Assembly (NCBI GenBank): GCA_019359445.1
Contig: JAHHHJ010000015.1
Span: 1 to 64,000, forward strand
Direction of reading: 5' to 3'
DNA length: 64,000 nt
Source: Kastovskya adunca ATA6-11-RM4
GTDB lineage: Bacteria; Cyanobacteriota; Cyanobacteriia; Cyanobacteriales; Coleofasciculaceae
The position numbers and the translations under genes were made by a program. Numbering within the stretch: the stretch's first letter is position 1; each line of letters starts with the position of its first letter. The notes under the pieces were generated by a model. The model saw nothing but the letters and a program-made list of their open reading frames with translations. It searched no databases and was not told where the DNA came from. Positions 8,897 to 62,507 of this stretch are shown here, piece after piece.

Positions 8897-9046
8897 GTTT
8901 TTTTTTCTCAACTCGCCTCTTTGATGCTAGGGGAAATTGAGGCGCTTAGGCTAGAAGCCCTGTTTATAGCAAACTGCTGAGTCGGTGAGTCGGTGAGTCC
9001 TAACTAATAAATCAAGTGCAGTGTAAAGGGCGATCGCTAAAAACGC

Positions 9047-9949
9047 CTAACGCACAGCAAACCGACGCACGGCAAATACGCTGCCCACGAAACCCACAGC
9101 ACCACCCAAACAGACAAGAATTACAGGCAGCAAAATCAGATGTAAGTAATTAGGTTGCAGCCCCTCAGCGAGGAATTGAATAAAATCCGGTTGAGTGGCG
9201 AGTAAGTTACGGAGAAACTGCTGAATACTAGTAATCAGAACCCAAGCGATCGCCGCACCGACAACGCCAAATACGATTCCCTGCAAAATAAATGGTAGGT
9301 AAATCCAAACGGTTGTTGCCCCTACCAATTGCATAATCTCAATCTCCCGCCGTCGTGCCATCACAATTAACCGAATCGTTGTTGTAATCACGGCAACGGC
9401 TGTCAGGCTGAGGATGGCAGTAACAGTGAAACTCACCCAGCCCAAGCCTTGATGCAGTTGATTCAGGCGTTCTAGGGCTTCATTGACGTATTGCACGTTA
9501 TCAACACCAGGGATTACTGCTAATTGCTGCGCCAGCACTGGGACATCTTCGGGGGTTTGCGCCTTCACTTTTAGCTCATCCACCAAAGGATTACCCGCTA
9601 GTTGCTGTGCCGCCCCGTTAATATCAGAAAGCCCCAACTCCTCCACGAGAGTTGCCCAAGCAAGTTCTTTATCTACCGTTTTCACAGCACTGATGTGAGG
9701 CAGTTTCTCCACCATGGGGATAACAACGTCTAGCTGCGCCCCAGGATCGAGATAAACCGCCACTTCCAGTTGGCTACCAAACTGATTTAACAGTCCTTCC
9801 AGTTGCCACGATGCCTGTAAACTCGTGCCAAAGAGAAACAATAAGACAGTGACGGTGCTGACGGCTGCCCAGTTCATCCAGCCCCCACGCTGCAATCCAA
9901 CTAGGGTTTCACGCAAGAGGTAATCAAGTTTGGTGAGAGATTGAAGCAT
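9047..9949 (-). CDS. ftsX: Cell division protein FtsX (permease-like)
   Basis: 300 residues from ATG at 9949 (MLQSLTKLDYLLRETLVGLQ). The topology is that of FtsX: an N-terminal cytoplasmic stretch, TM1 (AAVSTVTVLLFLFGTSLQ), an extracytoplasmic domain of about 110 residues (LEVAVYLDPGAQLDVVIP and following), then three C-terminal helices (VSFTVTAILSLTAVAVITTT, GIVFGVVGAAIAWVLI, LPVILVCLGGAVGFVGSVFA). In the family it pairs with the ATPase FtsE and controls peptidoglycan hydrolases at the septum. ftsE is not adjacent. The frame stays open for 81 more codons upstream only because it runs through the GC-rich repeat at 10015-10175, giving a Pro/Arg/Leu-rich artefact that should not be annotated as protein. 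Confidence 0.93.
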   Translation of the reverse strand: MLQSLTKLDYLLRETLVGLQRGGWMNWAAVSTVTVLLFLFGTSLQASWQLEGLLNQFGSQLEVAVYLDPGAQLDVVIPMVEKLPHISAVKTVDKELAWATLVEELGLSDINGAAQQLAGNPLVDELKVKAQTPEDVPVLAQQLAVIPGVDNVQYVNEALERLNQLHQGLGWVSFTVTAILSLTAVAVITTTIRLIVMARRREIEIMQLVGATTVWIYLPFILQGIVFGVVGAAIAWVLITSIQQFLRNLLATQPDFIQFLAEGLQPNYLHLILLPVILVCLGGAVGFVGSVFAVRRFAVR

Positions 9950-10014
9950 CCAATACCTGCCAACGCGATCGCGTAGATGAGCAAAAACCAAGATAACTGA
10001 AATCGGGAGAATGT

Positions 10015-10175
10015 GGCGAGCCGGGGAGCCGGGGAGCCGGGGTGCAGGGGCGCAGGGAAGCCGGGGAGCCGGGGAGCCGGGGAGCCGGGGAGCCGGGGTG
10101 CAGGGGCGCAGGGAAGCCGGGGAGCCGGGGAGCCGGGGAGCCGGGGCGCAGGGAAGCCGGGGAGCCGGGGAGCGC
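10015..10175. repeat. GC-rich tandem repeat, 9-bp unit GCCGGGGAG
   Basis: Tandem array of GCCGGGGAG units alternating with a longer block containing GGTGCAGGGGCGCAGGGAA. The higher-order pattern repeats about three times. It lies between the divergently transcribed ftsX and def genes, keeps all frames open on both strands, and so produces several spurious ORFs. Confidence 0.95.
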
Positions 10176-10196
10176 GGAGAAGCAATAACCAACCCT

Positions 10197-10230
10197 ATTC
10201 ATACTTCATACTTCACCCTTCATACTTTAT
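10197..10230. repeat. Heptamer STRR, TTCATAC type
   Basis: Short run of about four to five imperfect ATTCATA/CTTCATA heptamers next to the GC-rich array. It is the same motif as the longer arrays at 24201, 27083 and 62475. Confidence 0.85.
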
Positions 10231-10350
10231 TCCCGATGACGGTTATTTACCCACATCCCCGGAAAATTTATACTCTTGCTACTATTGGGAACTGTTAACA
10301 TTGAAGAAAATTACACCGTAAAATAGTAGTCTTTAGTGAGTTCACGTCCA

Positions 10351-10914
10351 ATGACTTCTCAAGTAGTCATCGAAAAGAAAAAATTAGAAAATCCGCCCTT
10401 AGAAATTCATTACTTAGGCGATCGCGTGCTGCGTCAGCCTGCCAAGCGAGTTGCGAAGGTAGACGACAGCATCCGGCAGTTGGTACGGGAGATGTTGCAA
10501 ACGATGTACAGTGCCGATGGCATTGGTCTAGCCGCCACACAAGTCGGAGTCAACAAGCAAGTAATTGTTATTGACTGCGAGCCGGATAACCCCACCAACC
10601 CGCCGCTAGTTTTAATCAACCCTGCCATCAAGAAATTTGGTCGCGCTTTGTGTGATGCTCAAGAAGGTTGCCTGAGCATTCCTGGCGTCTATCTAGATGT
10701 CCAACGCCCAGAGGAAGTAGAAGTCGCCTACAAGGATGAGAACGGACGTCCCCGCACCCTGAAAGCCGATGGATTGCTAGCGCGTGCTATCCAGCACGAA
10801 ATGGATCACCTGAATGGTGTAATGTTTGTGGATCGGGTGAATAATGGTTTGGCGTTAACTGAAGAACTCAAAAAGCATGGCTTTTCTGCTAACGCCGTTC
10901 AACCCATGCAATAA
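10351..10914 (+). CDS. def: Peptide deformylase
   Basis: Removes the N-formyl group from nascent proteins. All three PDF motifs are intact: GIGLAATQVG (motif 1), EGCLSIPG (motif 2, with the metal-binding Cys) and QHEMDHLNG (HExxH motif 3). I use the ATG at 10351 (MTSQVVIEKKKL), giving 187 residues. A GTG five codons upstream (10336) is also in frame, but the ATG start gives the N terminus usual for cyanobacterial PDFs. A small membrane protein gene follows 18 bases downstream and may be cotranscribed. Confidence 0.96.
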   Translation: MTSQVVIEKKKLENPPLEIHYLGDRVLRQPAKRVAKVDDSIRQLVREMLQTMYSADGIGLAATQVGVNKQVIVIDCEPDNPTNPPLVLINPAIKKFGRALCDAQEGCLSIPGVYLDVQRPEEVEVAYKDENGRPRTLKADGLLARAIQHEMDHLNGVMFVDRVNNGLALTEELKKHGFSANAVQPMQ

Positions 10915-10932
10915 GGATTGAACTAAAACATT

Positions 10933-11130
10933 ATGATGACACCAAAAAGCGGTCTATTCTTGACAGGTTCTTGCGTGGCAGCGATCGCTGCTGTTGGCTC
11001 AATCTTTGAACTTTCCTCAGGTAATCCCGCCTGGGGCACTTTGGGAACAGCGATTACCTTAGCGGCTAGCGTTCCCTTGACAGGATTCTTTTTTTATGCT
11101 GCGGTTCGTGACGCCAGAGCGAATCTATAG
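10933..11130 (+). CDS. Small two-helix membrane protein
   Basis: 65 residues with two hydrophobic segments: GLFLTGSCVAAIAAVGSIFEL near residues 7-27, and TAITLAASVPLTGFFFYAAV near 38-57. They are joined by a short polar turn, and the tail RDARANL is charged. It lies 18 bases after def on the same strand, so cotranscription is likely. The family is not recognised. Its coding status rests on the clean hydrophobic pattern and the short spacing to def. Confidence 0.65.
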   Translation: MMTPKSGLFLTGSCVAAIAAVGSIFELSSGNPAWGTLGTAITLAASVPLTGFFFYAAVRDARANL

Positions 11131-11257
11131 AACTTAGTCTAGCGATGCTCGTAATCGTAGATAGGGAAATGCAATCCGTCTTGGTTGATCTTGAACCTGG
11201 GCGGTTTTTTTTGTAAGGTGGGCTTTGCTCAAAAACGACTTTTTATAATGAGGTGCT

Positions 11258-11851
11258 TCACATCTCCCTCGCTAACGCCGCATCTACTTGTTGAAGCAGG
11301 TGTTCCGGGGTAGAGGCGTTATCTAGAACCACATCCGCCGCCGCCACTTTGTCAGCAAGGGGGAATTGGCTAGAAATCCGAGCGTGGGCATGTTCTGGAG
11401 TGAGGCGATCGCGTTTTATAATCCGCTCTAGCTGTTGGGTAGGTTCGCAATAAACCACCCAAATTTCTGTCACTAAGTGGGTTAACTTGGCTTCAAATAG
11501 TAACGGAATCGCTAACACAACTGTAGAGGCGGCGATGTTGTCCATTTCTGCTTGAAAACGCGATCGCACCACAGGATGAATCTGCTGCTCCAGCCATTGT
11601 CGTTCGGCGGGATTGGCAAAAACAACCTCCCCTAAGCGACGCCGATTGAGAGTGCGATCGCCCCCAAGAATATCATTGCCGTAGCGTTCCACAATTCTGT
11701 CTAACACCAAAGAACCGGGTTGCACCGTTTCTCTGGCGTAAACATCCGCATCTAATACCGTTAACTGATACGCTTCGGCAAGGTAATCAGAAACAGTAGT
11801 TTTCCCTGTAGCAATGCCACCTGTCAACCCAATGATGCGCTTTTGTGTCAT
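11258..11851 (-). CDS. coaE: Dephospho-CoA kinase
   Basis: Last step of coenzyme A synthesis, phosphorylating the 3'-OH of dephospho-CoA. The P-loop is GLTGGIATGKTTV. The substrate-binding stretch TVLDADVYARETVQPG and the lid region IKRDRLTPEHAHARI are characteristic. I choose ATG at 11851 (MTQKRIIGL, 197 residues), preceded by a strong ribosome site AGGGGG. The longer frame from a TTG at 11881 would overlap the upstream gene. The gene begins 7 bases after the stop of the upstream GGDEF/EAL gene, so the two are probably cotranscribed although functionally unrelated. Confidence 0.95.
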   Translation of the reverse strand: MTQKRIIGLTGGIATGKTTVSDYLAEAYQLTVLDADVYARETVQPGSLVLDRIVERYGNDILGGDRTLNRRRLGEVVFANPAERQWLEQQIHPVVRSRFQAEMDNIAASTVVLAIPLLFEAKLTHLVTEIWVVYCEPTQQLERIIKRDRLTPEHAHARISSQFPLADKVAAADVVLDNASTPEHLLQQVDAALAREM

Positions 11852-11858
11852 TTTCCCC

Positions 11859-14800
11859 CTAAAACTGCACCTCGGCAGCAAGTAAGGCTTCCGCCCCTTG
11901 ACTCGTTAGGGGTTTGGCAAACAGATACCCTTGCCCATATTCGCAATTGAGCGATCGCAACTGTTCCCACTGCTCTTGTGTTTCGACCCCCTCTGCCGTC
12001 ACATCCATCTCTAAAATGTGAGCTAACGTTGTCACCGTTCGCACAATCTCTAGGGCTTCTTTGTCAGCTCCCAAGCGACTGACAAAAGAGCGGTCAATTT
12101 TCAACGTATCAATGGGTAATTGATGCAAACGCCCCAAAGACGAGTAGCCCGTGCCAAAGTCATCAATGGAAAACTGAATCCCCAAGGTTTTAAGTTGTTC
12201 TAATATCACTAGTTCCACGGCGGTGTTTTCCATCATGGCGCTTTCGGTAATCTCTAGCTTTAAACTGCGCCCCTGGATTCCCGCTTCCCGCAGCAAGTTG
12301 TCTAGTTGTTCTAATAACCCTAATTGGGCTAGCTGCTTGCTGGAAACATTAACGCTCATTGTCAACGCGGCTTGACGGGGAAATTTGTCGTGCCAAGCTC
12401 GTAGTTGACGGCAAGCCTCCCGCCACACCCAACGATCGATCTGACCAATCAGCCCCGTTTCCTCTGCTAAGGGAATAAATTTGTCTGGTGAAACCATACC
12501 GCGTTCTGGATGCTGCCAGCGGATTAACGCCTCAAACCCCACGATTTTTCCCGTATTTAAGGAAATAATCGGCTGATAGTAAACCTGAAACTGAGATTGG
12601 GCGATCGCCCGCCGCAAGTCTGCCTGTAACTGCAAACGTTCCCTCGCCTCTGCTTGCATCAGCGGGTCGAAGACAGCATAACTCGCTTGGCGATGGACTC
12701 TAGCGTAATGCATGGCGGTATCAGCCGCCCGCAGCAGGTCTTCAGGATTACTAGCTTCCGACTCCTGACCACTCAAGACAATACCGATACTGGCAGCCGC
12801 AAACACTTCATGCTCACCAAGGTTAATAGCAGACAGTAGTTGTTGGTGAATCTGTTCTGCCATATTGGTGGCGACGCTGGCATCTTTGATATTTGGTAAG
12901 AGAATGGCAAACTTGTCCGAGCCTAGCCGTGCCAAGGTATCGCTAGGACGCAAACAGCGTTTTAACTTGTCTGTTGCCGTCACAATTAGCTGATCGGCAA
13001 ACCCATGTCCCAGGCTGTACTTAACAATCTCAAAGCCATCTAAATCTAAAAAAAGAAGGGCAAATAAACCGCTGTTATCTTGAAGTTGTTTTACCGTCAA
13101 CAGTTCTAAACGGTCTAAAAATAAGGCGCGATTGGGTAAATTTGTCAGCGAGTCATAAAAAGCGTAGCGTCGTAGTTGCACCTCAGATAGCTTGCGCTCA
13201 GTGATGTCCTGCGCCACAACCATGCCAGCAAAAATGTCTCCCTGATCGTTTTTGACGGGCAACGTCTGCACGGCATAAATGCGATTGACATAGGGGATTT
13301 CAAAGCAGGTCTTTGTTCCTGCTAGCGTGGCACGATAATTGGGTTCCAATACCTCGCAGGTTTCTAAGGGGCCAATTTCCCAAATGGTTTTGCCTTCTAG
13401 TAACTCTCTAGAAAGATTAATCCTCACTAACCCCGCGCCGTCTGCCAGGGTATAGCGCAGCTCTTGGTCAAATAGAAAGATTGCCCCGTCTGGATAGTTG
13501 CGAGCAATAGTGCGGTAGAGCTGTTCTCGCCTGCACAATTCCTCTTCGGCTTTCTTTTTCTCCGTCACGTCAATCACCATTGAAAGAAAGCCCATGACGC
13601 TGCCATCTGCTTCCTTCAATGCCAAGTTATACCACTCACAGAGGATGATACGTCCGTCTTTGGTGCGGTTTTCATTGATGTTGTGGGCGATCGCCATTGG
13701 CTCCAAGGCAAGCTGCTCAAAGATCGCTTCAACGTCCGCCCAAACCTCCGGAGTGATAAACAATTCCCAAGGATGCTTGCCCAATACATCAGCTTTGGTA
13801 AAGCCAAAGATTTGTTCTGCCGCCGGATTCCAATCGGTTATTTGCAAGTCTTTATTGCCGAGGATACAGCCAATCGGCATCCGGTCAAATTGAAGCTGAA
13901 GCCGCTCTTTTAGCTGTTTTGTTTGTTCAAAAAGCTGGGCATTGAGAATTGCCATTGCACAGCGTTCGGCTGTAATCTCTAGCAGATGAATTTCCTGCTC
14001 TTGACGGGGATGGAGGTTTAACCAATCGACATGAAGGACACCGATTACCTGACGGCGACGATGCAAGGGAACGCCTAGCATTGTCCGAATCCCCTGTTCT
14101 TTCAGGCGGGGGTTGAGGACGCGTGGATCGGACTGGGCATCTTCAAGATAAAGCGGCTGCATGGTTGAGGCGATCGTCCCCGCAAAGCCCTGTCCCATCG
14201 GAACGCTGTAGCGATGTTTGAGATTAGGATTGTCTTCACTCCAGACGTCCTCGTTCACGCCCAGGCTAGCGCGGACGAACAGATGGTCTTCTTCTTTGAG
14301 GAGAATCACCGCTGCATCCGCCTTCATCACTTCGACAATGCGACGGAGCAAGACATCGAGCAATTCGTCCAGATCTAAGGTGCTGATGCTATTGCTGGTG
14401 ATGGTTGTTAAGGCAAGCAAATCTTCTCGTTCTCGGCGCAGTTCCTCTTGCAGTTGCTTACGCTCTGTAATATCTCGCGCAACGCCAATGATACCCAGAA
14501 TGTTTCCTTGGGCGTCGCGGTAGGTATCTTTGGTAGACAGAAAGATCCTCGTGATGCCGTTGAGGGTGAGGACTTCCTCTAGGCTCTCCGTCTGACCCGT
14601 TGTCATGATCTTGCGGTCAGTCTCCATGATTTGACGAGCCGTTTCTGGAGACAGAAAAGCCGTGTCATCTTGCCCGAGGATTTCTTCTTCTAGCTTTCCA
14701 AAAATATCGGCAGTTGTGGAGTTAGCCATCAGGTAGCAACCCTGATGATTTTTCACAAAGATGGCGTCTGTTGTCCCTTCAACGACCGCCCTTAAAAGGT

Positions 14801-15035
14801 TGTAGCTTTCTTGCTGTAAGCGCCAAGCACGGGACACTAAAGCATAGAGAAACGCGCTGGTAACGAAGACAAACGCCCAGCCTTTAATAATTTGCAATTG
14901 TGTTAGGAGCGTGCCATCGTCAATGAATTGTGCCAGTAACCAGTCCGAAACAAGAATCCACAGGCTGCTAAAAAATGTATAAATGAATACAATATTTCGG
15001 ACTTGATGTCGTGCAGATAAACCCTTGCCGATCAT
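11859..15035 (-). CDS. Membrane PAS/GAF/GGDEF/EAL cyclic-di-GMP sensor protein
   Basis: 1058 residues from ATG at 15035. Two N-terminal membrane helices (about 14-36 and 48-68) are followed by PAS1 (ATTDAIFVKNHQGCYLMANS), a GAF domain (DLDELLDVLLRRIVEVMKAD to about 390), PAS2 (FDRMPIGCILGNKDLQITDW), PAS3 (NYPDGAIFLFDQELRY), a GGDEF domain (YDSLTNLPNRALFLDRL) and an EAL domain. The cyclase signature reads GSDKF instead of GG(D/E)EF, so cyclase activity is doubtful. The phosphodiesterase motifs look intact: GFEALIRWQHPERG, KLEITESAMM, IDDFGTGYSSL, TLKIDRSFV and TAEGVETQEQ. It is most likely a sensor-regulated c-di-GMP phosphodiesterase at the inner membrane. Confidence 0.92.
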   Translation of the reverse strand: MIGKGLSARHQVRNIVFIYTFFSSLWILVSDWLLAQFIDDGTLLTQLQIIKGWAFVFVTSAFLYALVSRAWRLQQESYNLLRAVVEGTTDAIFVKNHQGCYLMANSTTADIFGKLEEEILGQDDTAFLSPETARQIMETDRKIMTTGQTESLEEVLTLNGITRIFLSTKDTYRDAQGNILGIIGVARDITERKQLQEELRREREDLLALTTITSNSISTLDLDELLDVLLRRIVEVMKADAAVILLKEEDHLFVRASLGVNEDVWSEDNPNLKHRYSVPMGQGFAGTIASTMQPLYLEDAQSDPRVLNPRLKEQGIRTMLGVPLHRRRQVIGVLHVDWLNLHPRQEQEIHLLEITAERCAMAILNAQLFEQTKQLKERLQLQFDRMPIGCILGNKDLQITDWNPAAEQIFGFTKADVLGKHPWELFITPEVWADVEAIFEQLALEPMAIAHNINENRTKDGRIILCEWYNLALKEADGSVMGFLSMVIDVTEKKKAEEELCRREQLYRTIARNYPDGAIFLFDQELRYTLADGAGLVRINLSRELLEGKTIWEIGPLETCEVLEPNYRATLAGTKTCFEIPYVNRIYAVQTLPVKNDQGDIFAGMVVAQDITERKLSEVQLRRYAFYDSLTNLPNRALFLDRLELLTVKQLQDNSGLFALLFLDLDGFEIVKYSLGHGFADQLIVTATDKLKRCLRPSDTLARLGSDKFAILLPNIKDASVATNMAEQIHQQLLSAINLGEHEVFAAASIGIVLSGQESEASNPEDLLRAADTAMHYARVHRQASYAVFDPLMQAEARERLQLQADLRRAIAQSQFQVYYQPIISLNTGKIVGFEALIRWQHPERGMVSPDKFIPLAEETGLIGQIDRWVWREACRQLRAWHDKFPRQAALTMSVNVSSKQLAQLGLLEQLDNLLREAGIQGRSLKLEITESAMMENTAVELVILEQLKTLGIQFSIDDFGTGYSSLGRLHQLPIDTLKIDRSFVSRLGADKEALEIVRTVTTLAHILEMDVTAEGVETQEQWEQLRSLNCEYGQGYLFAKPLTSQGAEALLAAEVQF

Positions 15036-15670
15036 AAGCAATTTTTACAAGCCTCTGGGGGCATTGATTGCGAAATATAAGTCTAGTTGTAGACAGACAG
15101 GATTGCCAAAGATTTAAATAGATTGGATGCTAAGGATTTCTCAGTTAATATCCCCACATCGTGATGATTTCCCAAGTTTTTCTCCTCTGCTCAATTAGTC
15201 TTTATTTACACAAATTTAGCGCTCTTCATATTATAGGGGCGCGAATTTTGACTAAAAATTAGCAGTTGCACTGAAAGAAGAAAAAAATCTTCCTATAAGT
15301 AGGACAGATTATTTGTTTAACCAATCCTTATATCGAGGTTTGAGAAACTGTTAATTTTTAATTCTCTTTGCAAAGAGTTTTAATTTAAATGTCAACATCG
15401 TTTAGCCAAGAAATTAATTTCCACAACCAGTAGCCAAACTCAGTTTTAATTCATATCTTGCACATTGTCATTAAGCGTAAGGTAGACAGAGCCTACCCCC
15501 GGTATTTCTTGTCTAACGTCGTCAGAAGCACTGCCCACCCTACATAAACTGAATTCTTGGTTAACTAACAAATCTTTTCGGGTAGGTGGGGGTGAACAGA
15601 GTGAAACCCAACGCAGACAACACTTTGGGTAATATGTTAGTTTCGCGTATTTCAAAACGCCTACCTACAA
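15036..15670. other. Gene-free region with repeat-derived segments
   Basis: No credible coding region. The first 400 bases are AT-rich and include a small inverted repeat CTCTTTGCAAAGAG near 15364. From about 15475 the sequence consists of segments that look like dispersed extragenic cyanobacterial repeats (GTAGGGTGGGCAGTGCTTCT read on the minus strand, and GTGGGGGTGAACAGAGTGAA). A 69-codon minus-strand frame (15446-15655) lies in this repeat sequence and is rejected as a gene. The promoter of the 15035 gene must lie near the left end, but I cannot pick a site with confidence. Confidence 0.6.
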
Positions 15671-17203
15671 TCAATCAAAATATTTCCTAATTGCTTGGAT
15701 TAGTCCTTCTAGGGTATATTCCGCCGCTTCTACATCCACTCGCCTCAAGAGCTGACGGCAAGTTTCAGAGGTTTGAGGACCAATCGAAGCAATGGAGACC
15801 TTTTCTAACACAGAGGTAATAGAGACAGGATGGGATAGGGTATCGCCTTGCTGCAAAGCCTTTTCTAGAAGTTGATGAAAATGCCTAACGGTTTTAGAAC
15901 TGGCAAAGGTAATGACATCCACCGCACCCGCCAAAAGAGCATCAAGTGCCGCCGGAGCGATAGTTGCCGGACATCCTGACTGATAGGCTGCTACCTCCAC
16001 CATCTCTGCTCCTTGTGCCGTTAGTTCCTGCACTAACGCTTCTCTACCGCCCGTTTCTACTCTGGGAAACAGAATTTTTAACCCAGATAAGGATTCGGGA
16101 AAGTGTTCCACTAACGAATCAGCAATAAAGTCTGGCGGGATGAAGTCGGGTTGGAGGTTGCGAGATTTTAGGCTGGCGGCGGTTTTCTTCCCAACGACGG
16201 CAATTTTGACCCCCGCTAAGGCACGGGTATCTTTTCCTTGAGCCAGCAGCCGTTCAAAAAAGTAATCGACGCCGTTGCTGGAGGTAAGAATGAGCCAATT
16301 GAAGTCAGAAAGATGAGCGATCGCATTATCCAATGCTTCCCAACTCGAAGGCGGCGTAATCTCCAACGCTGGCATCTCAATGACACTTGCACCCTCTCGC
16401 TCAAGCAGTTTGCGAAATTGGCTAGATTGTCCAGCAGAACGGGTGACTAAAACGGTTTTACCTGATAAAGGAGGTTGAGACATAGGAGATTGAGATTGAA
16501 GAAACTCGCGTAACTTAACAACTTCGCCGATCGCAATTACAACTGGAGAGAGGGAAATGCCCTCCGTTTGCTTGAGGATATTGCCTAAGGTACCCGTCCA
16601 AATTTGTTGTTGAGGACATCCTGCCCAACGGATAATCGCAATGGGAGTGGAATGCGATCGCCCATAGCGTTGTAACTGGCGAGTAATTTCGCTCAAATGA
16701 CGCCCACCCATCAAAATCACCAGCGTATCAATCCGCGCCAAGGCTTCCCAATCTAACTCCCTTGGTTCATGGGCACTGAGTACGGCAAAACAACGACTCA
16801 GTACTGCATCGGTAAGAGGAATACTAGCAAGCAAGGGAGCAGCCAAGGCAGAAGAAATTCCAGGGACAACTTCAAATGCACACCCCGCCTCAATTAACGC
16901 CTGGATTTCGGCACTAGTACGCCCAAAAATAAAAGGATCGCCACTTTTTAGCCGCACCACTTGCTTCCCCTGTTGGCATTGTTCCACAAGTAACTGATTA
17001 ATCTCAGCTTGCGGCGTGCTGGGGCGTCCTCCCCGCTTACCAACGTCAAATTTTAAGCAATCGGGAGGTACTAATTGCAATAGCTGGCGATCGACTAAGG
17101 CATCATAGATTAACACCTCGGCTTGAGCTAATAGTTTTTGTGCCTTCACCGTCAGGTAAGACACATCCCCTAATCCGGCTCCAACGAGGTAAACTTTTCC
17201 CAT
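15671..17203 (-). CDS. cobA-hemD: Uroporphyrinogen-III C-methyltransferase / uroporphyrinogen-III synthase fusion
   Basis: A two-domain tetrapyrrole enzyme. Residues 1 to about 245 are a CobA/SUMT methyltransferase (VYLVGAGLGDVSYLTVKA, LKSGDPFIFGRTSAEI, VVPGISSALAAPLLASIPLT), which makes precorrin-2 for sirohaem and cobalamin. From about 260 there is a HemD domain (TVLVTRSAGQSSQFRKLLER, WLILTSSNGVDYFFERL, ITFASSKTVRHFHQLL), which makes uroporphyrinogen III. The fusion places consecutive steps at the branch point to siroheme/B12. I use ATG at 17203. A TTG four codons upstream is possible. This is a known arrangement in several bacteria including cyanobacteria. Confidence 0.95.
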   Translation of the reverse strand: MGKVYLVGAGLGDVSYLTVKAQKLLAQAEVLIYDALVDRQLLQLVPPDCLKFDVGKRGGRPSTPQAEINQLLVEQCQQGKQVVRLKSGDPFIFGRTSAEIQALIEAGCAFEVVPGISSALAAPLLASIPLTDAVLSRCFAVLSAHEPRELDWEALARIDTLVILMGGRHLSEITRQLQRYGRSHSTPIAIIRWAGCPQQQIWTGTLGNILKQTEGISLSPVVIAIGEVVKLREFLQSQSPMSQPPLSGKTVLVTRSAGQSSQFRKLLEREGASVIEMPALEITPPSSWEALDNAIAHLSDFNWLILTSSNGVDYFFERLLAQGKDTRALAGVKIAVVGKKTAASLKSRNLQPDFIPPDFIADSLVEHFPESLSGLKILFPRVETGGREALVQELTAQGAEMVEVAAYQSGCPATIAPAALDALLAGAVDVITFASSKTVRHFHQLLEKALQQGDTLSHPVSITSVLEKVSIASIGPQTSETCRQLLRRVDVEAAEYTLEGLIQAIRKYFD

Positions 17204-17292
17204 TTGATCGCTCAATTTTTTTCCTCAGTATGTTCATATTTTGGAGGATATAGGGCATTGAGGAAACCTCTGAATCGATGAGAATATAGACT

Positions 17293-17862
17293 TTGAAGAA
17301 ATTAGTACTTGTAGCGATCGCGGTAGCAGCGATCGCGTTAGGGCTTCCTCAACTCGCTCTGGCTGAGACAACCCAACTCACGCAACTTGATTATGCGGGT
17401 TTTGTCACGGTTGAGGGGGCGTATCCTCTCCCCTTCCGTTACAGGTTTAATGTGCCCCACAAAAGCTTCGCCGTCGAAAATCTTAGCGGAAGGCTGCAAG
17501 ATGAAGGGGATTCGGAACTGACTATTGAGTTGCTGCGATCGCTGAAAAAGTTAGCTTCAACACTCACAGGACTGACTCTGAGTTCCTTAAGGGGTTCGGG
17601 TGCTATTTTTAGCGATGCCGAGAAGACTATTCAGCTTTCTCCCTTTGAGTTTTCCTATAATCCGGTTGATGATATTTTGACTGTCGATGGCTACGACTTT
17701 GCCAAGATTCAATCTTGTTTAAGTCGTACTTGCTATCTCGCGGGAACAGCTTTTGCCGTGGGTTCCTTGGGGAGTTTACCGATTACTACGACTGTGGAGT
17801 TTGATGTAGCGCAAACTGCAACGCCGATTGGCGATCGCGATTCCCTTCCTATATTGGGTTGA
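17293..17862 (+). CDS. Exported protein of unknown function
   Basis: 189 residues with a textbook signal peptide (KKLVLVAIAVAAIALGLPQLALA, cleavage after ALA near residue 24). The mature part is beta-rich and mildly acidic (DYAGFVTVEGAYPLPFRYRF). It has two Cys near the C terminus (IQSCLSRTCYLAG) that could form a disulfide. The only usable start is TTG at 17293; an ATG 17 bases upstream runs into a stop. The family is not recognised. It is followed by a long palindrome. Confidence 0.7.
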   Translation: MKKLVLVAIAVAAIALGLPQLALAETTQLTQLDYAGFVTVEGAYPLPFRYRFNVPHKSFAVENLSGRLQDEGDSELTIELLRSLKKLASTLTGLTLSSLRGSGAIFSDAEKTIQLSPFEFSYNPVDDILTVDGYDFAKIQSCLSRTCYLAGTAFAVGSLGSLPITTTVEFDVAQTATPIGDRDSLPILG

Positions 17863-17867
17863 ATGCG

Positions 17868-17900
17868 AGATCCCCGACTTCTTCAAGAAGTCGGGGATCT
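17868..17900. repeat. 33-bp near-perfect palindrome
   Basis: Arms of 16 bases (AGATCCCCGACTTCTT and its complement) around one central base, starting 6 bases after the stop of the preceding gene. It looks like one of the dispersed extragenic palindromes of filamentous cyanobacteria and could also form a transcript-end hairpin. It has no T-run. Confidence 0.85.
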
Positions 17901-17984
17901 GAACAAAGAAACTTACTTAAAATTACGGTTGACAAAGTCGTCAATACTTTAATGAAAACGAGCAATTCTGTTCTTTTATAAGTG

Positions 17985-18028
17985 TCTGTATTTTCACTGA
18001 TAGTGAATAGAAGATACAGATTTTTTTT
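17985..18028 (+). terminator. Possible imperfect terminator
   Basis: CTGTAT...ATACAG and TTCACT...AGTGAA can pair with a 6-base bulge on one side, ending in eight T residues (18021-18028). This would end transcription from the exported-protein gene before the PEP-CTERM gene. The bulge lowers confidence. The rest of 17901-18218 shows no gene. Confidence 0.4.
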
Positions 18029-18218
18029 GTGCCTAATTATTTACCAAACCTTCACGCTAACTCCTGATGAACTTTACCTACTAAAGCCGTTTAAGGGATA
18101 GATTAAATAGGAACTAGCAAGTCGTAAGTCCGATATAGAACTAATCACGCTAAGTCCGACTGTGCGCGGATTAAGCAAAACTTCTACCCAACAAAAACTT
18201 TTGGAGATAGAGAAGAAT

Positions 18219-21883: not shown

Positions 21884-21970
21884 ACATAACGACCGCGTTC
21901 AGCGGATGTAAGTGGCATCAAACTCTACACCAAAGAATTGCTTCATTCCGATACAACGCGCTTGTTAGGC
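21884..21970 (-). repeat. 87-bp attC-like element A
   Basis: Read on the minus strand it begins GCCTAAC (a perfect RYYYAAC core) and ends GTTATGT (GTTRRRY with one mismatch). Inside, CGCGTT (after a 3-base spacer AAG) is complementary to AACGCG (before the 3-base spacer GTC). This is the R''-L''...L'-R' layout of an integron attC site. The stop codon of the upstream 71-residue gene lies inside the first core, as in gene cassettes. It aligns without gaps, over its whole length, with the element at 46918-47004. No integrase is visible in the window. Confidence 0.6.
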
Positions 21971-22180
21971 TTCGCGTTTTGATGCCTGAAAGTCTACTAT
22001 CTTAGAGTACAAGCTGCCTACTGATTCTGGGGCAAAAAGCTGGTCTTTGAGTTTCAAGTAGTCTCCCTTGCCAATATTGCACGCTGCCCAAAACCGAGCA
22101 ACAGCAGACGGTTCCATATTGGATAGCAAAATCTGAAATCCTTCCTGTAAAACTTGTTGCTCGCTTTTAACCTGGATCAT
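21965..22180 (-). CDS. Small partner protein of the PIN toxin (probable antitoxin)
   Basis: 71 residues, helical and acidic/basic mixed (MIQVKSEQQVLQEGFQILL...). It overlaps the end of the PIN gene by 14 bases, so the two are translationally coupled, toxin first. Small proteins of this type with a QVLQEGFQ-like start accompany PIN proteins in other cyanobacteria, and an antitoxin role is inferred from that. No recognised DNA-binding motif. Its last codons and stop fall in the attC-like element A. Confidence 0.65.
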   Translation of the reverse strand: MIQVKSEQQVLQEGFQILLSNMEPSAVARFWAACNIGKGDYLKLKDQLFAPESVGSLYSKIVDFQASKREA

Positions 22181-22613
22181 CGCTGCTCATCTCCAAAACA
22201 AAATCAGCTGGATTCATGACTTTCATAGTTAACCCCGAACACCGATTGATTAGCCGCTTATCACAAGTAATGAAATAATCGCTGTTAATCGCTTCTGCAC
22301 ACGCAACATGCAATGCATCAATCGCTTTTAATCCATTTTGTTCTAAGTCTTCGGCTTTCTGGCGGATTGCTTCATCAACTTCTTGCCTTAATTCGGCTAA
22401 TTGAAGATATCGGCTCATCGCCTCCTGATTGATGGGGTGCGGATTGCGATCATTCTCATATTCCAAAACTGAGGAGCTAATTAACTCAACTGCCTTGGCT
22501 TCAACCATCTGCAAAATAATGACTACAGCTTGGGTTTCCAGGAAAATTTTGGGCTGAGTTTGATCGTCAAACGGACGGTTGTAAGCACTGGTATCTAAAT
22601 ATACACTTGTCAC
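22167..22613 (-). CDS. PIN-domain nuclease (VapC-like toxin)
   Basis: 148 residues from GTG at 22613 (reads VTSVYLDTSAYNRPFDDQTQ). An upstream extension to 22670 lacks support and would run into the divergent amidase. PIN-domain acidic residues are visible: Asp in VYLDTSAYNRPFD, Glu in SSSVLEYENDRN, Asp in KAIDALHVACAEA and Asp in YFITCDKRLINRC. They form the Mg-dependent RNase site of the VapC superfamily. It is followed by an overlapping small gene, the likely antitoxin. It appears intact, unlike the PIN remnant 650 bases away. Confidence 0.85.
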   Translation of the reverse strand: MTSVYLDTSAYNRPFDDQTQPKIFLETQAVVIILQMVEAKAVELISSSVLEYENDRNPHPINQEAMSRYLQLAELRQEVDEAIRQKAEDLEQNGLKAIDALHVACAEAINSDYFITCDKRLINRCSGLTMKVMNPADFVLEMSSDDPG

Positions 22614-22681
22614 GCGATCGCTCGAAGCAAGACTATTCCACTTTATCCTGCTGCTTGGACAAGCACCCAACCCAAAACATC

Positions 22682-24079
22682 ATGAATTCAACTGACTTAG
22701 CCTTCACTCCGGCTTTAGAGCAAGCACGACTCATCCGCAGCAAGGAAGTATCGCCTTTGGAGTTGGTACAACTTTATTTAGAGCGGATTGAACAACTTAA
22801 CTCTAAGCTGGGAAGCTACTTTACGGTAACGGCTGAACAGGCGATCGCTGATGCTACAGCCAAAACGGAACAACTGGCTGGCAACTCCGAAGACTTACCC
22901 CCATTCTTTGGCGTCCCCATCTCCATCAAAGACCTGAATGCAGTTGCAGGCGTCCGATACACTGCGGGTACACCTGTACTAATGAAAAACATTGCCGACT
23001 ACGACGATGGAGTAGTGACGCGGATTAAGCAGGCAGGCTTTACGATTCTCGGCAAAACGGCAACATCAGAACTGGGGTCTTTTCCTTATACTGAACCTCT
23101 AGGATTTCCCCCAGCTCGCAATCCTTGGAACTTGGACTATACCCCTGGCGGTTCTAGTGGTGGTGCATCAGCAGCCGTAGCAGCAGGATTATGCGCGATC
23201 GCTCAAGGTTCAGATGGTGGTGGTTCGCTGCGGGGGCCAGCTTTTTGTTGCGGATTAGTCGGTATTAAACCCTCGCGGGGACGAGTTTCTCATGCCCCTG
23301 TGGGCGATCGCCAAAGCGGAATTTCTAGTAATGGCCCTTTAGCTCGAACTGTAGCTGATGCCGCCGCATTACTAGATGTAATGTCAGGTTATATTACTGG
23401 CGACCCCTACTGGTTACCTGCTCCAGAGAAGCCGTTTCTTGATGCCACACAGCAACAGTTAGGTCAATTACGCATTGCCTTTACAACATCAGTTCTCCCC
23501 GTCGGAGAAGCAAACAGCGAGTGTCAGCAGGCGGTGCAAGAAACTGTGCAACTGCTAGAACAAATGGGTCATATTGTCGAAGCGGGTTGTCCTGATTTTA
23601 ATGGTTTGACGGAACCCTTTATCAAAGTTTGGCAAGCTGGAGCCACAGCCGCAGGAATTCCTAAAGAGGTACTGAGTCCTATGAATCGCTGGTGTGCCGA
23701 GCAATCGACTTCTGCGGGGGAATATTTGCAAGCGGTTATTCAAATGCAGCTCGTTTCTCGGCGAATCGTGGCATTTTTTGATCACTTCGATGTACTAGTG
23801 CTGCCAACCTACCTGCATTCAACCATCCGCGTTGGCGAGTGGGCGAATTTGAATCCCGAAGAAACGCTGCAAAAAATTATTAACTGGATTGCCCCTTGTC
23901 CGCCGTTTAATGCATCAGGCTTACCCGCGATCGCTCTTCCAACGGGTTTTGATGCCAAGGGCTTACCACTAGGTATCCAACTCGTCGGACGCCCTGCTGC
24001 CGAAGCAACATTAATCGCTCTAGCATCCCATCTAGAAGCCGCTAAACCCTGGATTCAGCATCGCCCTGCTTTAAGTTGA
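22682..24079 (+). CDS. Amidase signature family hydrolase
   Basis: 466 residues from ATG at 22682. The amidase-signature catalytic triad is clear: Lys in FFGVPISIKDL, the cis-Ser in TPGGSSGGASAAVAAGL and the Ser nucleophile in QGSDGGGSLRGPA. It resembles GatA and plain amidases. The absence of gatB/gatC neighbours and the divergent C-terminal half argue for a stand-alone amidase of unknown substrate. The last codons end at the start of a 100-base tandem repeat (24081). It is divergent from the PIN toxin. Confidence 0.9.
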   Translation: MNSTDLAFTPALEQARLIRSKEVSPLELVQLYLERIEQLNSKLGSYFTVTAEQAIADATAKTEQLAGNSEDLPPFFGVPISIKDLNAVAGVRYTAGTPVLMKNIADYDDGVVTRIKQAGFTILGKTATSELGSFPYTEPLGFPPARNPWNLDYTPGGSSGGASAAVAAGLCAIAQGSDGGGSLRGPAFCCGLVGIKPSRGRVSHAPVGDRQSGISSNGPLARTVADAAALLDVMSGYITGDPYWLPAPEKPFLDATQQQLGQLRIAFTTSVLPVGEANSECQQAVQETVQLLEQMGHIVEAGCPDFNGLTEPFIKVWQAGATAAGIPKEVLSPMNRWCAEQSTSAGEYLQAVIQMQLVSRRIVAFFDHFDVLVLPTYLHSTIRVGEWANLNPEETLQKIINWIAPCPPFNASGLPAIALPTGFDAKGLPLGIQLVGRPAAEATLIALASHLEAAKPWIQHRPALS

Positions 24080-24080
24080 T

Positions 24081-24180
24081 GGGGTGCAGGGGTGCAGGGG
24101 TGCAGGGGTGCAGGGGTGCAGGGGTGCAGGGGTGCAGGGGTGCAGGGGTGCAGGGGTGCAGGGGTGCAGGGGTGCAGGGG
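24081..24180. repeat. 8-bp tandem repeat GGGGTGCA, 12.5 copies
   Basis: Perfect uninterrupted copies of GGGGTGCA that begin at the first base after the amidase stop codon. Such perfection implies recent expansion or strong homogenisation. Confidence 0.98.
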
Positions 24181-24200
24181 AGAATCTCTTACCTCTTACC

Positions 24201-24288
24201 CTTCATACTTCATACTTCATACTTCATACTTCATACTTCATACTTCATACTTCATACTTCATACTTCATACTTCATACTTCATACTTT
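24201..24288. repeat. Heptamer STRR CTTCATA, about 12.5 copies
   Basis: Perfect tandem CTTCATA units 20 bases after the 8-bp array. This is the heptanucleotide STRR type known from filamentous cyanobacteria. Confidence 0.98.
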
Positions 24289-24300
24289 CTTGCCCACCAC

Positions 24301-26970: not shown

Positions 26971-27082
26971 TTGCTCTCTACCAGTAACCAACAACTGGAT
27001 TAGTCACTAGTTTATGAGTCTTGACTCGGTGAGTGTTGAGGTTGGGGAGATGAGGAGATGGGGAGCAGGGGAGCAGTGATAA

Positions 27083-27155
27083 CTTCATACCTCATACCTC
27101 ATACCTCATACCTCATACCTCATACTTCATACCTCATACTTCATACTTCATACTT
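27083..27155. repeat. Heptamer STRR CTCATAC/TTCATAC
   Basis: About ten tandem heptamers, mostly CTCATAC, with TTCATAC variants at both ends. They are flanked by GGGGAGA-type purine-rich sequence and several copies of CGACTCAC(C), forming an intergenic repeat patch between the ClC and tldE-like genes. Confidence 0.96.
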
Positions 27156-46917: not shown

Positions 46918-47004
46918 AGCTAACGGTTGCGTTCAGCGGCGGTAAGTAGTCTTGAACTCAGCACCAAGACATCTACTCCATTCACTGCAACGCACTGGTT
47001 AGGC
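46918..47004 (-). repeat. 87-bp attC-like element B
   Basis: On the minus strand it starts GCCTAAC (perfect RYYYAAC) and ends GTTAGCT (one mismatch to GTTRRRY). TGCGTT after spacer CAG pairs with AACGCA before spacer ACC. Further in, AGTA and GTCTTG pair with TACT and CAAGAC with a 3-base extrahelical GAT, a typical folded attC feature. It has exactly the same length as element A and aligns without gaps (shared CGCTGAACGC, TTGGTG, GAGTT). It begins 14 bases after the RelE stop codon. Confidence 0.62.
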
Positions 47005-47018: not shown

Positions 47019-47282
47019 CTAAGAGAGTAACCTGTCATATTCTGCATGGGAACCGACCCAAAACCAGATGACTGTATCTCCCTCTAGCTGTCCAACTGCT
47101 CGATAACTTCTGCTGATACGAGCAGAGTAAATTGGCAATTCTGGATGTACTTTTTTGAAGCGCAGACTAGGATGATTAGGGTTTTGCTTGAACTGACGAT
47201 ATGCTTTGCGTGTTTGCTCTTGAACTTGCTCAGGTAGTTCCGCAAATGCCTTACGGAACTGAGCAGTTGTGCGTGACTTCAC
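47019..47282 (-). CDS. RelE/HigB-type toxin
   Basis: 87 residues, basic and compact: RTTAQFRKAFAELPEQVQEQ, HPSLRFKKVHPELPIYSARI, SRSYRAVGQLEGDTVIWFWV and GSHAEYDRLLS, a RelE-superfamily mRNA interferase pattern. It starts with GTG overlapping the stop of the preceding antitoxin gene (GTGA), so translation is coupled. The attC-like element B follows the stop at once. Confidence 0.88.
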   Translation of the reverse strand: MKSRTTAQFRKAFAELPEQVQEQTRKAYRQFKQNPNHPSLRFKKVHPELPIYSARISRSYRAVGQLEGDTVIWFWVGSHAEYDRLLS

Positions 47283-47497
47283 AAGGTCTCTGGATTTAAT
47301 TCTTGGGTTTTACCTGCACGATATTCAGCCATTGCTTCGGCTGCAAGCTTAGCAAGAACATCTTGCGATTTCGCAAAGGTTGCATCCCATCGAGCTTCAT
47401 CTTCAAGTTCTTCCAAAATCATTGCCGCGATCGCATCTTGTTCGCTAGCAGGTAAGGTCTTGAGCTTCGCAATTGCTCTTTCTAGTAAATCAGTCAT
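47279..47497 (-). CDS. Antitoxin of the RelE-type toxin
   Basis: 72 residues from ATG at 47497 (MTDLLERAIAKLKTLPASEQ); the frame to 47548 is not needed. It is helical and acidic (AAMILEELEDEARWDATFAK), matching the small proteins that precede RelE/ParE toxins in cyanobacteria. It overlaps the toxin start by 4 bases. No clear DNA-binding motif, so autoregulation is not evident. Confidence 0.82.
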   Translation of the reverse strand: MTDLLERAIAKLKTLPASEQDAIAAMILEELEDEARWDATFAKSQDVLAKLAAEAMAEYRAGKTQELNPETL

Positions 47498-52482: not shown

Positions 52483-54978
52483 TTGCAAAAACTTTTACAA
52501 ATTACGGCGCGCCTTCAAAGAAAGTTAAGCAAATTTTTCACCCTTATTGTTGTGCGTATGGGCACCGACAGCATTTCCCAATCTCAAACTCGTTGTCTAA
52601 CTAGGCTGTCTCTGATTGCCCTTGGTGCCCTGGCATTTTTATCCGTTGCCAGTTACATTTGGTGGCAATGGACACTCGCTCTCCGACCGTTCTCCATCCC
52701 CCCTAACCCCGCCGAGTGGGGGGAACAAGAAACAGCGATCGCTACTTCATCCTCCACACTTCATACTTCATCCTTCCCACTTCATCCTTCATCCTCCACA
52801 CTTCATACTTCATCCTTCCCACTTCATCCTTCATCCTGGGGATTCATCTTACTTTTTCTCACCTTACTCTTGCTTTTGTGCTTAGGGCTTTTTGTTGTTT
52901 TGCTGGGGCAAAGTAAGATTGGCGCTGATGCAGAAATGCAGCGCGTTACAACAGAACTGCGGCAGAAGAATGCTCAACTGGATCTTGCCTTTCAGGAAGT
53001 ACAGTCAGCAACGAGCCTCAAGTCGGAATTCTTGGCAAACATGAGCCATGAAATTCGCACTCCAATGAATGCGGTGATTGGGATGACTGGGTTGTTGCTG
53101 GATACCTCCCTGACTGAGGAACAACGGGATTTTGTCGAAACAATTCGTCGCAGTGGGGATGCCCTTTTAACAATCATTAATGACATTCTAGATTTTTCTA
53201 AAATAGAGGCGGGCAAGCTAGAGCTGGAGCGATCGCCTTTTGATTTGCGCGACTGCATTGAGGAGTCCCTCGATCTGATCGTGACAAAAGCAACTAGCAA
53301 GGGGCTAGATGTTGCTTATCTCATGGATGACGACATCCCTAATACTCTGATTGGCGATGTCACGCGCTTGCGTCAGATTCTTGTCAATCTCCTGAGTAAT
53401 GCCGTGAAGTTTACTCAAAAGGGGGAAGTGGTTATTTCTGTTACCTCTCGCCCTCTCAGTAGCGATCGCCGGGAGGCAGACTTCCACGTTATCCGGTTTG
53501 CTGTCAAAGATACAGGGATTGGCATTCCGCCAAACCGGATGGATATCATTTTTGAGTCTTTTGCTCAAGTTGATGCCACAACCACCCGACAATATGGCGG
53601 AACAGGGTTGGGGTTAGCGATCAGTATGCGTTTGAGCGAACTGATGGGAGGAAGAATTTGGGTGGAAAGTGAGGTGGGGGAAGGGTCTACCTTTTACTTT
53701 TCCATTGTGGCGGCGGCGGCTCCTAGTCAACCCCGCATCTACCTGCATGGAAGCCAACCGCAATTGCAAGGCAAACGCCTACTGATTGTGGATGACAATG
53801 CTACAAATCGCCAGATTTTGCGCTTACAAGCTCAGAAATGGGGGATGATTCCTCAGGAGGCAGCGACGGGTACGGAGGCGCTCAAGTGCCTTGTGCAGAG
53901 TACCGGGGCAGATTCTCGTCAGGACAATCGCTTTGATGTAGTGATTCTGGATATGCAAATGCTAGAAATGGAGGGTCTTACCCTGGCGGCAGAAATTCGC
54001 CAGCACCTAGACCAAAACGCCCTACCTTTGGTGATGTTGACTTCGGTGGGGGTGCGAGAGACTAGAAGCGATCGCCTGGGCTTTACTGCCAGGTTAAATA
54101 AACCGATTAAAGGCTCCCAGCTTTATGAGGTGTTGCTGAGGGTCTTTACTTCCCAATCTCAAAGAGCAAATCGGCGTTTGATTCCAGTACCCGTTAAATC
54201 CCTACAAATTAATTCCCACTTGGCAACACAACTCCCGCTCAAAATCTTACTGGTTGAAGACAATGCCGTGAACCAAAAAGTGGCACTGAGGATGCTGCAA
54301 GGAATGGGCTACCGAGGAGATGTGGCTGGCAATGGGATAGAAGCCTTGGAAGCCTTGCAGCGCCAAAACTACGATGTCATCCTAATGGATCTGCAAATGC
54401 CGGAAATGGATGGGATAGAGACAAGCCAGTGCATTCGGGCGCGTCCGGGACAGCAGCCCCGGATTATTGCGATGACGGCGGATGCGATGGAGGGGGTGCG
54501 CGAGGAATGCCTAGCGGCGGGGATGGATGACTACATTACAAAGCCTGTGAAGATAGAAGAATTGCAAGAGGCGTTGCAACGATGGGGAAGCCTGTCATTG
54601 CCAACCGCACCCGAAAGCCAAAGCCCCACTGAAGCCGTTCTGAATTGGGAGTATCTCCAGCAAATTTCTGGCGGCGATCGCATTTTTGCCAAAGAACTCC
54701 TGGATTTGTTTGTCAGCGATGCCCGATGTCATTTAGCGGCTGCCAAGATCGCGGCGACGGCTGGCAATCCGGAAGCCCTGGGAAAGGAAGCTCATCAACT
54801 GCGGGGAGCGAGTGCCAATGTCGGGGCGGTAGTGATGCATACCCTCGCTACCCAGTTGGAAGAAACAGCCCATCAGGGATGTTGGGAAAGCGCTACGGCT
54901 TTGCTAACCCAACTACAGGCGGCATTTGATGCCGTGACTCACGAGTATTACCATAACGAGAATTGCCCCTGCGGATAA
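52483..54978 (+). CDS. Membrane hybrid histidine kinase (HisKA-HATPase-REC-REC-HPt)
   Basis: 831 residues from TTG 52483; an ATG at 52558 (25 codons later) is the alternative and no ribosome site decides. TM1 is about 44-64 and TM2 about 127-147. The exposed segment between them contains a 14-residue unit repeated twice (see repeat at 52746). Then come a coiled coil, HisKA (EFLANMSHEIRTPMNAVIGM), HATPase (VNLLSNAVKFTQKGE, YGGTGLGLAISMRLSELMGG), REC1 (LLIVDDNATNRQILRL, FDVVILDMQMLEMEG), REC2 (ILLVEDNAVNQKVALRMLQG, DVILMDLQMPEMDGIE) and an HPt domain with His in EAHQLRGASANVGA. A phosphorelay probably feeding the REC-GGDEF protein encoded next. Confidence 0.95.
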   Translation: MQKLLQITARLQRKLSKFFTLIVVRMGTDSISQSQTRCLTRLSLIALGALAFLSVASYIWWQWTLALRPFSIPPNPAEWGEQETAIATSSSTLHTSSFPLHPSSSTLHTSSFPLHPSSWGFILLFLTLLLLLCLGLFVVLLGQSKIGADAEMQRVTTELRQKNAQLDLAFQEVQSATSLKSEFLANMSHEIRTPMNAVIGMTGLLLDTSLTEEQRDFVETIRRSGDALLTIINDILDFSKIEAGKLELERSPFDLRDCIEESLDLIVTKATSKGLDVAYLMDDDIPNTLIGDVTRLRQILVNLLSNAVKFTQKGEVVISVTSRPLSSDRREADFHVIRFAVKDTGIGIPPNRMDIIFESFAQVDATTTRQYGGTGLGLAISMRLSELMGGRIWVESEVGEGSTFYFSIVAAAAPSQPRIYLHGSQPQLQGKRLLIVDDNATNRQILRLQAQKWGMIPQEAATGTEALKCLVQSTGADSRQDNRFDVVILDMQMLEMEGLTLAAEIRQHLDQNALPLVMLTSVGVRETRSDRLGFTARLNKPIKGSQLYEVLLRVFTSQSQRANRRLIPVPVKSLQINSHLATQLPLKILLVEDNAVNQKVALRMLQGMGYRGDVAGNGIEALEALQRQNYDVILMDLQMPEMDGIETSQCIRARPGQQPRIIAMTADAMEGVREECLAAGMDDYITKPVKIEELQEALQRWGSLSLPTAPESQSPTEAVLNWEYLQQISGGDRIFAKELLDLFVSDARCHLAAAKIAATAGNPEALGKEAHQLRGASANVGAVVMHTLATQLEETAHQGCWESATALLTQLQAAFDAVTHEYYHNENCPCG
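52746..52829 (+). repeat. Intragenic 42-bp repeat (two copies) built from TTCATCC/TTCATAC heptamers
   Basis: Two identical 42-bp units, each six heptamers of the intergenic STRR type, lie in frame inside the sensor kinase gene. They encode SSSTLHTSSFPLHP twice, in the loop between the two membrane helices. 42 is divisible by both 7 and 3, so copy-number change keeps the frame. A partial third unit follows to 52838. Confidence 0.92.
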
Positions 54979-62309: not shown

Positions 62310-62474
62310 TTTCAAGCAGGATGAAAGATATAAATGCTGAGTCCTGATGGGGGTGGGTTTAATGAACCACACCAGGCACAGAGGACGCGGAGATAAGAGA
62401 AGGAGAGGGGGATGAGGGGATGGGAAGATGTTAGCGTAGCCCGGAGATAAGGTGATGGGGAGAATATCCCTTAC

Positions 62475-62507
62475 ACTTCATACTTCATATTTCATACTTC
62501 ATACTTT
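62475..62507. repeat. Heptamer STRR CTTCATA, short array
   Basis: About four to five imperfect CTTCATA/TTCATAT units just upstream of the glycosyltransferase start (6 bases from its ATG), so it may replace or overlap the usual ribosome-binding region. The preceding 62350-62460 contains GGAGATAAG-type repeats and a CTCCGCGTCCTCTG-like segment in inverted form. Confidence 0.85.

Follow-up and report, generated by a model that had tools for sequence, protein, structure and literature searches.

Integrons are best known from resistance plasmids. In integrons, the strand opposite the gene folds into a hairpin that exposes two extrahelical bases, the integron integrase, IntI, binds the folded attC site and cuts within the AAC/GTT of the R box, and gene and attC site move as one cassette. 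In attC sites of Vibrio and of class 1 integrons, the strand opposite the gene carries two extrahelical bases, a T and a G, at a spacing of six pairs.

The passages of the published literature on which we draw describe attC structure and bottom-strand choice (PMC8946536), an attC model for Cyanobacteria (PMC8352920), intI in Cyanobacteria, with a third of intI genes being pseudogenes (PMC2426708), and integrons in Cyanobacteria, with complete integrons rarer than CALINs, attC clusters that have no integrase (PMC9668308). For CALINs, such passages give off-target insertion, intI loss, and rearrangement as origins, and also describe toxin-antitoxin (TA) cassettes (PMC8618304), state that IntegronFinder 2.0 reports a CALIN from two sites up (PMC9024848), and describe mobilisation in trans (PMC11389934); a passage on attG cites experimental single cassettes off-array (Loot et al. 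2024, via PMC12444791). PMC3108266 is a further citation in this literature.

Here we analyse an element, B, at 46918–47004 of the window (the whole stretch of 64,000 nucleotides of Kastovskya adunca DNA under study), together with a second element, A, at 21884–21970. We find that 46918–47004 is very probably an integron attC that closes a TA cassette of the relBE/parDE type and that now stands alone in the chromosome. The features are listed below; A1 is an alignment of 14 sites, the basis of a 20-pair covariance model, R1, and A2 comprises 56 further R1 matches, none of them in A1 and eight of them from the own genome.

46918–47004, plus strand: predicted attC site B, whole (covariance-model match)
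46918–46924, plus strand: R' box of B, GTTAGCT on the gene strand (from the sequence)
46928–46933, plus strand: L' outer arm, TGCGTT, pairing with 46989–46994 (A1 columns 11–16 with 74–79)
46934–46939, plus strand: L' inner arm, CAGCGG (A1 columns 17–22)
46981, plus strand: conserved extrahelical T (52 of 56 in A2; nearly invariant in A1)
46982–46987, plus strand: L'' inner arm, TCACTG (A1 columns 67–72)
46988, plus strand: conserved extrahelical C (14 of 14 in A1, 55 of 56 in A2)
46989–46994, plus strand: L'' outer arm, AACGCA (pairing in A1 with 46928–46933)
46998–47004, plus strand: R'' box of B, GCCTAAC on the gene strand, fitting RYYYAAC (from the sequence)
47019–47282, minus strand: toxin of cassette B, RelE/ParE superfamily (Pfam ParE_like PF24732)
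47279–47497, minus strand: putative antitoxin of cassette B (no Pfam match; boundary set by homology)
21884–21970, plus strand: predicted attC site A, oriented as B (covariance-model match, 77 bits, E 4.8e-20)
21965–22180, minus strand: 71-aa gene of cassette A (ORF; no Pfam match)
22167–22614, minus strand: PIN-domain toxin gene of cassette A (Pfam PIN PF01850; start taken at GTG 22614)

The sequence at 46918–47004 is as an earlier, sequence-only reading described it. As that reading also held, A and B lie on the same strand and align without gaps over 87 positions. Of these positions, 58 are identical; elsewhere in the window, on either strand, the best gapless match to B reaches 40 of 87, and a covariance-model scan with the whole window among its targets gives no window match at E ≤ 1 apart from A and B. 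In the own-genome search, B is matched by R1 with 81.2 bits (E 2.2e-21). The gene is on the minus strand and the plus strand of B is the would-be recombining (bottom) strand, on which A and B each show the order R' (complement), spacer, L', variable part, L'', spacer, R''. The R'' box of both sites (GCCTAAC) fits RYYYAAC; the R' boxes of B (GTTAGCT) and of A (GTTATGT) are each one position off the textbook GTTRRRY, and array sites beside IntI depart from GTTRRRY likewise.

The window holds other repeats as well. Tandem heptamers of the CTTCATA kind occur at 24190–24297, 27082–27155, 52730–52841, and 62465–62506, and also at 10186–10227; they recur across the own genome and in family members, and we take them to be short tandem repeats of a kind long known from cyanobacteria. 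Two arrays of an 8-base tandem repeat, at 9975–10204 and 24057–24214, lie 14 kb apart and match each other at 62–80%.

The outer arms of B pair as had been read from the letters, both in the sequence and in the predicted fold. A 3-base GAT bulge, which had been proposed as the strand-asymmetry that integrases read, does occur in the predicted fold of the plus strand of B, but belongs to the variable inner part of the site and is not a shared feature, so that the proposal falls as far as a conserved asymmetry is concerned. The conserved unpaired bases are C 46988 and T 46981, and the strand-asymmetry of the site resides in this extrahelical pair of C and T, which the strand opposite the gene carries at a spacing of six pairs. 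DNA folding energies of the single sites are unremarkable (for B, z is −1.5 on one strand and −2.1 on the other; for A, it is −1.4 and −0.8), and the case for attC therefore rests on the site family and on covariation. Energy z-scores near −1.5 are, equally, what one may cite in favour of chance palindromes, and it is the site family that bears on this explanation.

A blastn search of the own genome with the element returned four similar places, and an HMM built from five own copies returned further sites, beside intI remnants of relatives. With R1, which scored 150 of 1024 candidates in the own genome, this genome yields at least 19 sites at E ≤ 0.01 and at least 23 at E ≤ 1. Sites at E ≤ 0.01 are present in 42 of 56 relatives, that is, in 43 of 57 genomes counting the own genome; the remaining 14 genomes, up to about 9 Mb in size, give no match at E ≤ 0.01, and thus R1 does not fire everywhere. 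In a phylum sample of 386 genomes, in each of which R1 scored 11 candidates, sites at E ≤ 1e-4 are present in at least 92. Within the own genome, four sites (E ≤ 0.01) lie within 7 kb on contig C20 and two lie on contig C22; the 13 of 19 sites outside these clusters are solitary and are spread over seven contigs.

Across the site family, in A1 and in A2, the L boxes vary in sequence and their pairing is preserved. In A1, from which the structure tested on it had itself been drawn, 84.6% of cells pair, vs. 71.5% in shuffled versions and 26–46% in slid versions, and 12 of 20 pairs have changed on both sides. A2 was aligned by the model, a procedure that favours the structure, and one of its members repeats another, read on the reverse strand. 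In A2, the share of paired cells is 90.7%, both sides have changed in 15 of 20 pairs (matched by 11 of 500 shuffles), and there are 208 doubly changed cells, vs. 67.9 expected from shuffles (0 of 500 reach 208) and 30–54 in slid versions. The compensatory changes in the arms that the sequence-only reading had proposed as a check are thus present in A1 and in the 56 matches of A2. Matches with E-values to 1e-21, covariation of the arms in A1 and A2, and the 14 of 57 genomes that contain no match at E ≤ 0.01 all contradict an origin by chance, against which it had already been argued from the two window elements; we conclude that chance palindromes are ruled out, the probability left to them being negligible.

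To place the sites relative to genes, ORFs were called mechanically at 48 loci, of which 19 are the sites of the own genome and 29 are the top-scoring sites of as many relatives. At 45 of 48 loci, the closest ORF upstream is directed into the site (sign test, p = 1.3e-10; 17 of 19 own sites and 28 of 29 sites of relatives); at 36 of 48, it lies no more than 60 bases away. Downstream of the site, 31 of 47 ORFs are on the same strand (p = 0.04). The sites thus respect gene ends, as had been anticipated for attC. The hairpin, which forms on either strand, and its location immediately 3' of genes would also suit an element that merely resembles attC, such as a structured RNA, a terminator, or a repeat of the REP/MITE type with a preference for gene ends. 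A search up to E 10 finds no Rfam family at the site, a T-run is not required, and the two conserved unpaired bases lie on one side, all of which argues against this explanation; two further lines of evidence that bear on it, from orthologous loci and from integrons, are presented below.

Cargo was scanned at the 17 own sites (E ≤ 0.01) that have a gene pointing in; 16 genes were scanned, and a 52-aa ORF was left out. The suggestion that copies always lie 3' of small TA genes fails, TA genes being a minority, 4 of the 16: a ParE_like gene, the 71-aa gene (counted via its PIN partner), and two BrnA genes, one above and one below the cut-off. The other own cassette genes encode NUDIX (two genes), a SacI-type restriction enzyme, CHAT, Pirin, DUF6887, and DUF4926, with weaker matches to RVT_1 (just below cut-off) and KAP_NTPase (marginal); three of the 16 have no Pfam match. 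A site tied to TA genes alone is rejected, 12 of the 16 scanned cargo genes being otherwise. The reverse-transcriptase-like gene (RVT_1) and the SacI-type restriction enzyme, in own cassettes on C22 (L054/L001) and C31 (L055), are typical defence cargo.

The toxin beside B has its stop 14 bases from the site and belongs by Pfam to the RelE/ParE superfamily (52.8 bits against PF24732, ParE_like, cut-off 24.4), in agreement with the sequence-only reading; the start of the putative antitoxin was set at 47497, where similarity to most orthologues begins. The reading that each element closes a TA module is thus borne out for B; the module of A consists of a PIN-domain gene and a 71-aa partner that has no Pfam match. 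The stop codon of the 71-aa gene falls within the R'' box of A. In a genome of another family (G029), the unit of 71-aa gene and PIN gene is 87% identical over 696 bp, starting from the R'' edge of the site, and the G029 site next to the unit has different arms with pairing retained. Only 29 of 48 fourfold sites of the PIN gene are identical, and neutral drift with pairing kept therefore suffices for the differing arms of A and the G029 site; exchange of whole attC bodies between genes is not needed to explain them. Two further genomes (G002 and G013) have copies of the cassette A genes in which ACCTAAC is retained where the gene ends; these copies show no R1 match.

Scanning of 84,980 species genomes for the toxin of cassette B gave 122 relatives. 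Among the best 80 of these 122 loci, 10 have an R1 site at the toxin 3' end, eight full and two weak or partial. All eight full sites lie exactly 8 nt past the toxin stop, and the two weak or partial sites share the junction; the window toxin stops two codons ahead of the ancestral stop position, which is followed by the identical 8 nt. The gene-site junction is identical among the orthologous sites, and the arms are wholly different. At three loci (L226, L227, and L257), additional sites flank the TA pair, and the pair therefore lies in an array there. These results show that the TA pair of the window is an integron cassette in other species.

A quick tree of 79 copies, with two partial loci omitted, gives at least 7 changes of site for nine full holders, three partial holders being uncounted. 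The window's copy groups with four copies that lack an R1 match (SH-aLRT 95). In three of these four (L208 1400–1425, L228 2780–2800, and L233 2775–2797), similarity to the window runs through the R''-L'' half only and ends at 46985–46987, with a breakpoint that is alike in all three; these half-sites look like a decayed site. We infer that the TA pair was a cassette early on and that sites were lost repeatedly.

The same sites are carried by integrons. Ten loci at which intI exceeds the TIGR02249 cut-off were examined (L035, L183–L187, L191, L192, L194, and L195); eight have sites, and 29 of 29 sites lie 5' of intI with a single polarity. L183–L187 were chosen for sites detected nearby and L035 came from the intI search of the relatives; among the four loci chosen for intI alone (L191, L192, L194, and L195), two have a site, with 22.7 and 44.8 bits. 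The clearest integron (G222:C20, L183) has an intact 320-aa IntI at 17240–18202 on the plus strand and an array of 15 sites at 3410–16220 with its cassette genes on the minus strand; this IntI matches 2a3v with E 1.8e-93 over 311 residues, including the integron-specific stretch. Loci with fragments only of intI mostly show the same polarity (G023:C74, G049:C82, G035:C145, G005:C80, and G010:C320); exceptions occur at sub-cut-off intI fragments, with the site on the other strand at G035:C104 and on the 3' side at G006:C1 and for one site of G038:C13. Arrays of fixed polarity beside integron integrases, and a gene-site junction that is the same at 10 orthologous loci while the arms differ throughout, are not what a structured RNA, terminator, or REP/MITE-type repeat predicts, and we regard that explanation as highly improbable.

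Against the attC reading stand the misfit of R' to GTTRRRY, the weak single-sequence fold, the failure to place a 5' cassette boundary, the polarity exceptions at sub-cut-off intI fragments, and the nesting of the window copy among four orthologues in which no site was detected. The attC reading, as first proposed from the letters, is nonetheless supported, and neither of the results that had been named as refuting it, copies located without regard to gene ends and arms lacking compensatory changes, was found.

The own genome contains no match to TIGR02249 (integron integrase) above cut-off. It contains intI fragments on C6 (model positions 1–84, one stop) and C26 (26–107, four stops; and 71–116); weak TIGR02249 matches on C21 and C16 are other tyrosine recombinases. 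Past its stop, the C6 fragment has a PDB match at E ≤ 0.01 to the integron integrase 2a3v alone. A complete integron would combine functional intI, attI, and an array; the own genome does not show one, since the intI found there is broken into fragments, of which the two larger are interrupted by stops. On C26 (L005 1500–2470), an attC-like site and a BrnA-type antitoxin gene lie between two overlapping intI pieces, a layout that resembles a cassette lodged between two broken integrase copies. The C20 site cluster of the own genome and an integron of another genome (G211) have a 1.7 kb block in common (L189 7861–9549, L184 8979–10676), and also one cassette; the block adjoins the intact intI in G211 and holds a LysR-type regulator (read from the ORF) and a neighbour.

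An intI match at E ≤ 1e-15 is present in 16 of 56 relatives and is over cut-off in one; in the phylum sample, intI at E ≤ 1e-30 is present in 41 of 386 genomes and is over cut-off in 22. Genomes with intI carry sites in 31 of 41 cases and the remaining genomes in 61 of 345; the odds ratio is 14.4 (p = 1e-13, with relatedness ignored). The ten intI genomes without a detected site are G214, G235, G256, G304, G338, G403, G061, G083, G086, and G089.

Two histories may be considered for the solitary sites. According to the first, solitary sites are remnants of longer arrays, broken by rearrangement or loss after intI died; this history shares the attC identity with our main reading and makes off-target integration unnecessary. 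It is consistent with the clusters that persist on C20 (four sites within 7 kb) and C22 (two sites), with the remains of intI on C6 and C26, those on C26 lying next to a site and a BrnA-type antitoxin gene, and with the sister copies of the TA pair that retain only the first half of the site. It is consistent, too, with the R boxes, which were compared for 33 of 37 array sites (the weakest omitted), 13 solitary sites of the own genome, and 13 sites from relatives: A and B retain the GTT core, as do 9 of 13 own solitary sites, vs. 31 of 33 array sites, and this lower retention indicates that decay is under way. Set against it are the 13 of 19 own sites that stand alone, on seven contigs, and mostly still close a gene. 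We give array decay a little less than an even chance.

According to the second history, which we put forward tentatively as the less probable of the two, off-target integration naturally seeded single cassettes, TA cassettes among them, across cyanobacterial chromosomes, and the cassettes outlive the integrase. Under off-target seeding, a junction kept across families and arms rewritten pairwise would mean that the sites have long been in use. In the 34 of 48 loci with a usable gene start, GTTRRRY lies upstream of the first gene in 12, vs. 6 for the other strand, a count from which no 5' cassette boundary can be located, and R''-R' pairing is similar whether a site is solitary or in an array (p = 0.68). 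The genes that flank B and A are found in family members at separate places, which yielded no syntenic empty site.

If B is an attC, as we hold, its plus strand, opposite the gene, would fold into a hairpin and expose the extrahelical C and T, IntI would bind folded B and cleave it at the AAC/GTT in its R box, and the TA gene pair and B would then move as one cassette. On this analysis, IntI presumably moved cassette B, B may still be cleavable, and TA function may have helped to retain the cassette. Only fragments of intI were found in the own genome, and cassette B could therefore probably move only if another source provided an integrase in trans.

For specialists, the points of interest are the breadth of site-bearing genomes without intact integrase and the junction fixed across many species. 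In this photosynthetic lineage, sites are far commoner than intact integrase (at least 92 vs. 22 of 386 genomes). Solitary cassettes with an orthologous junction allow the fate of cassettes to be followed once the integrase is dead, and open to study both retention by TA cargo and a natural off-target origin of single cassettes. Were off-target seeding true, today's genomes would hold many stranded cassettes, available to any incoming IntI. Our searches of open-licence papers listed none on solitary attC sites of cyanobacteria, and we do not claim that such work is absent from print.

Compared with attC sites of Vibrio and class 1 integrons, the sites described here share the T and the six-pair spacing, and the other extrahelical base is C rather than G. 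They are like the attC sites of sedentary chromosomal integrons of cyanobacteria in arms, spacer, two extrahelical bases, polarity, and placement at gene ends, and R1 also finds arrays beside intact IntI in other cyanobacteria; unlike in those integrons, A and B stand alone, and no intact intI was found in the own genome. With CALINs and single attC sites they share an attC and a gene without a neighbouring integrase, but A and B are single and 25 kb apart, below the two-site reporting threshold given in the passage on IntegronFinder 2.0 (PMC9024848). Cassettes integrated at attG, as cited in a passage of PMC12444791 (Loot et al. 2024), are likewise single and away from an array, and insertion at attG should leave host and cassette joined cleanly at G/TT; here, with junction counts of 12 vs. 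6 of 34 and p = 0.68 for pairing, no insertion junction is demonstrated. Cyanobacterial integrons are already in print, and B is a further attC of known type, stranded with a TA cassette.
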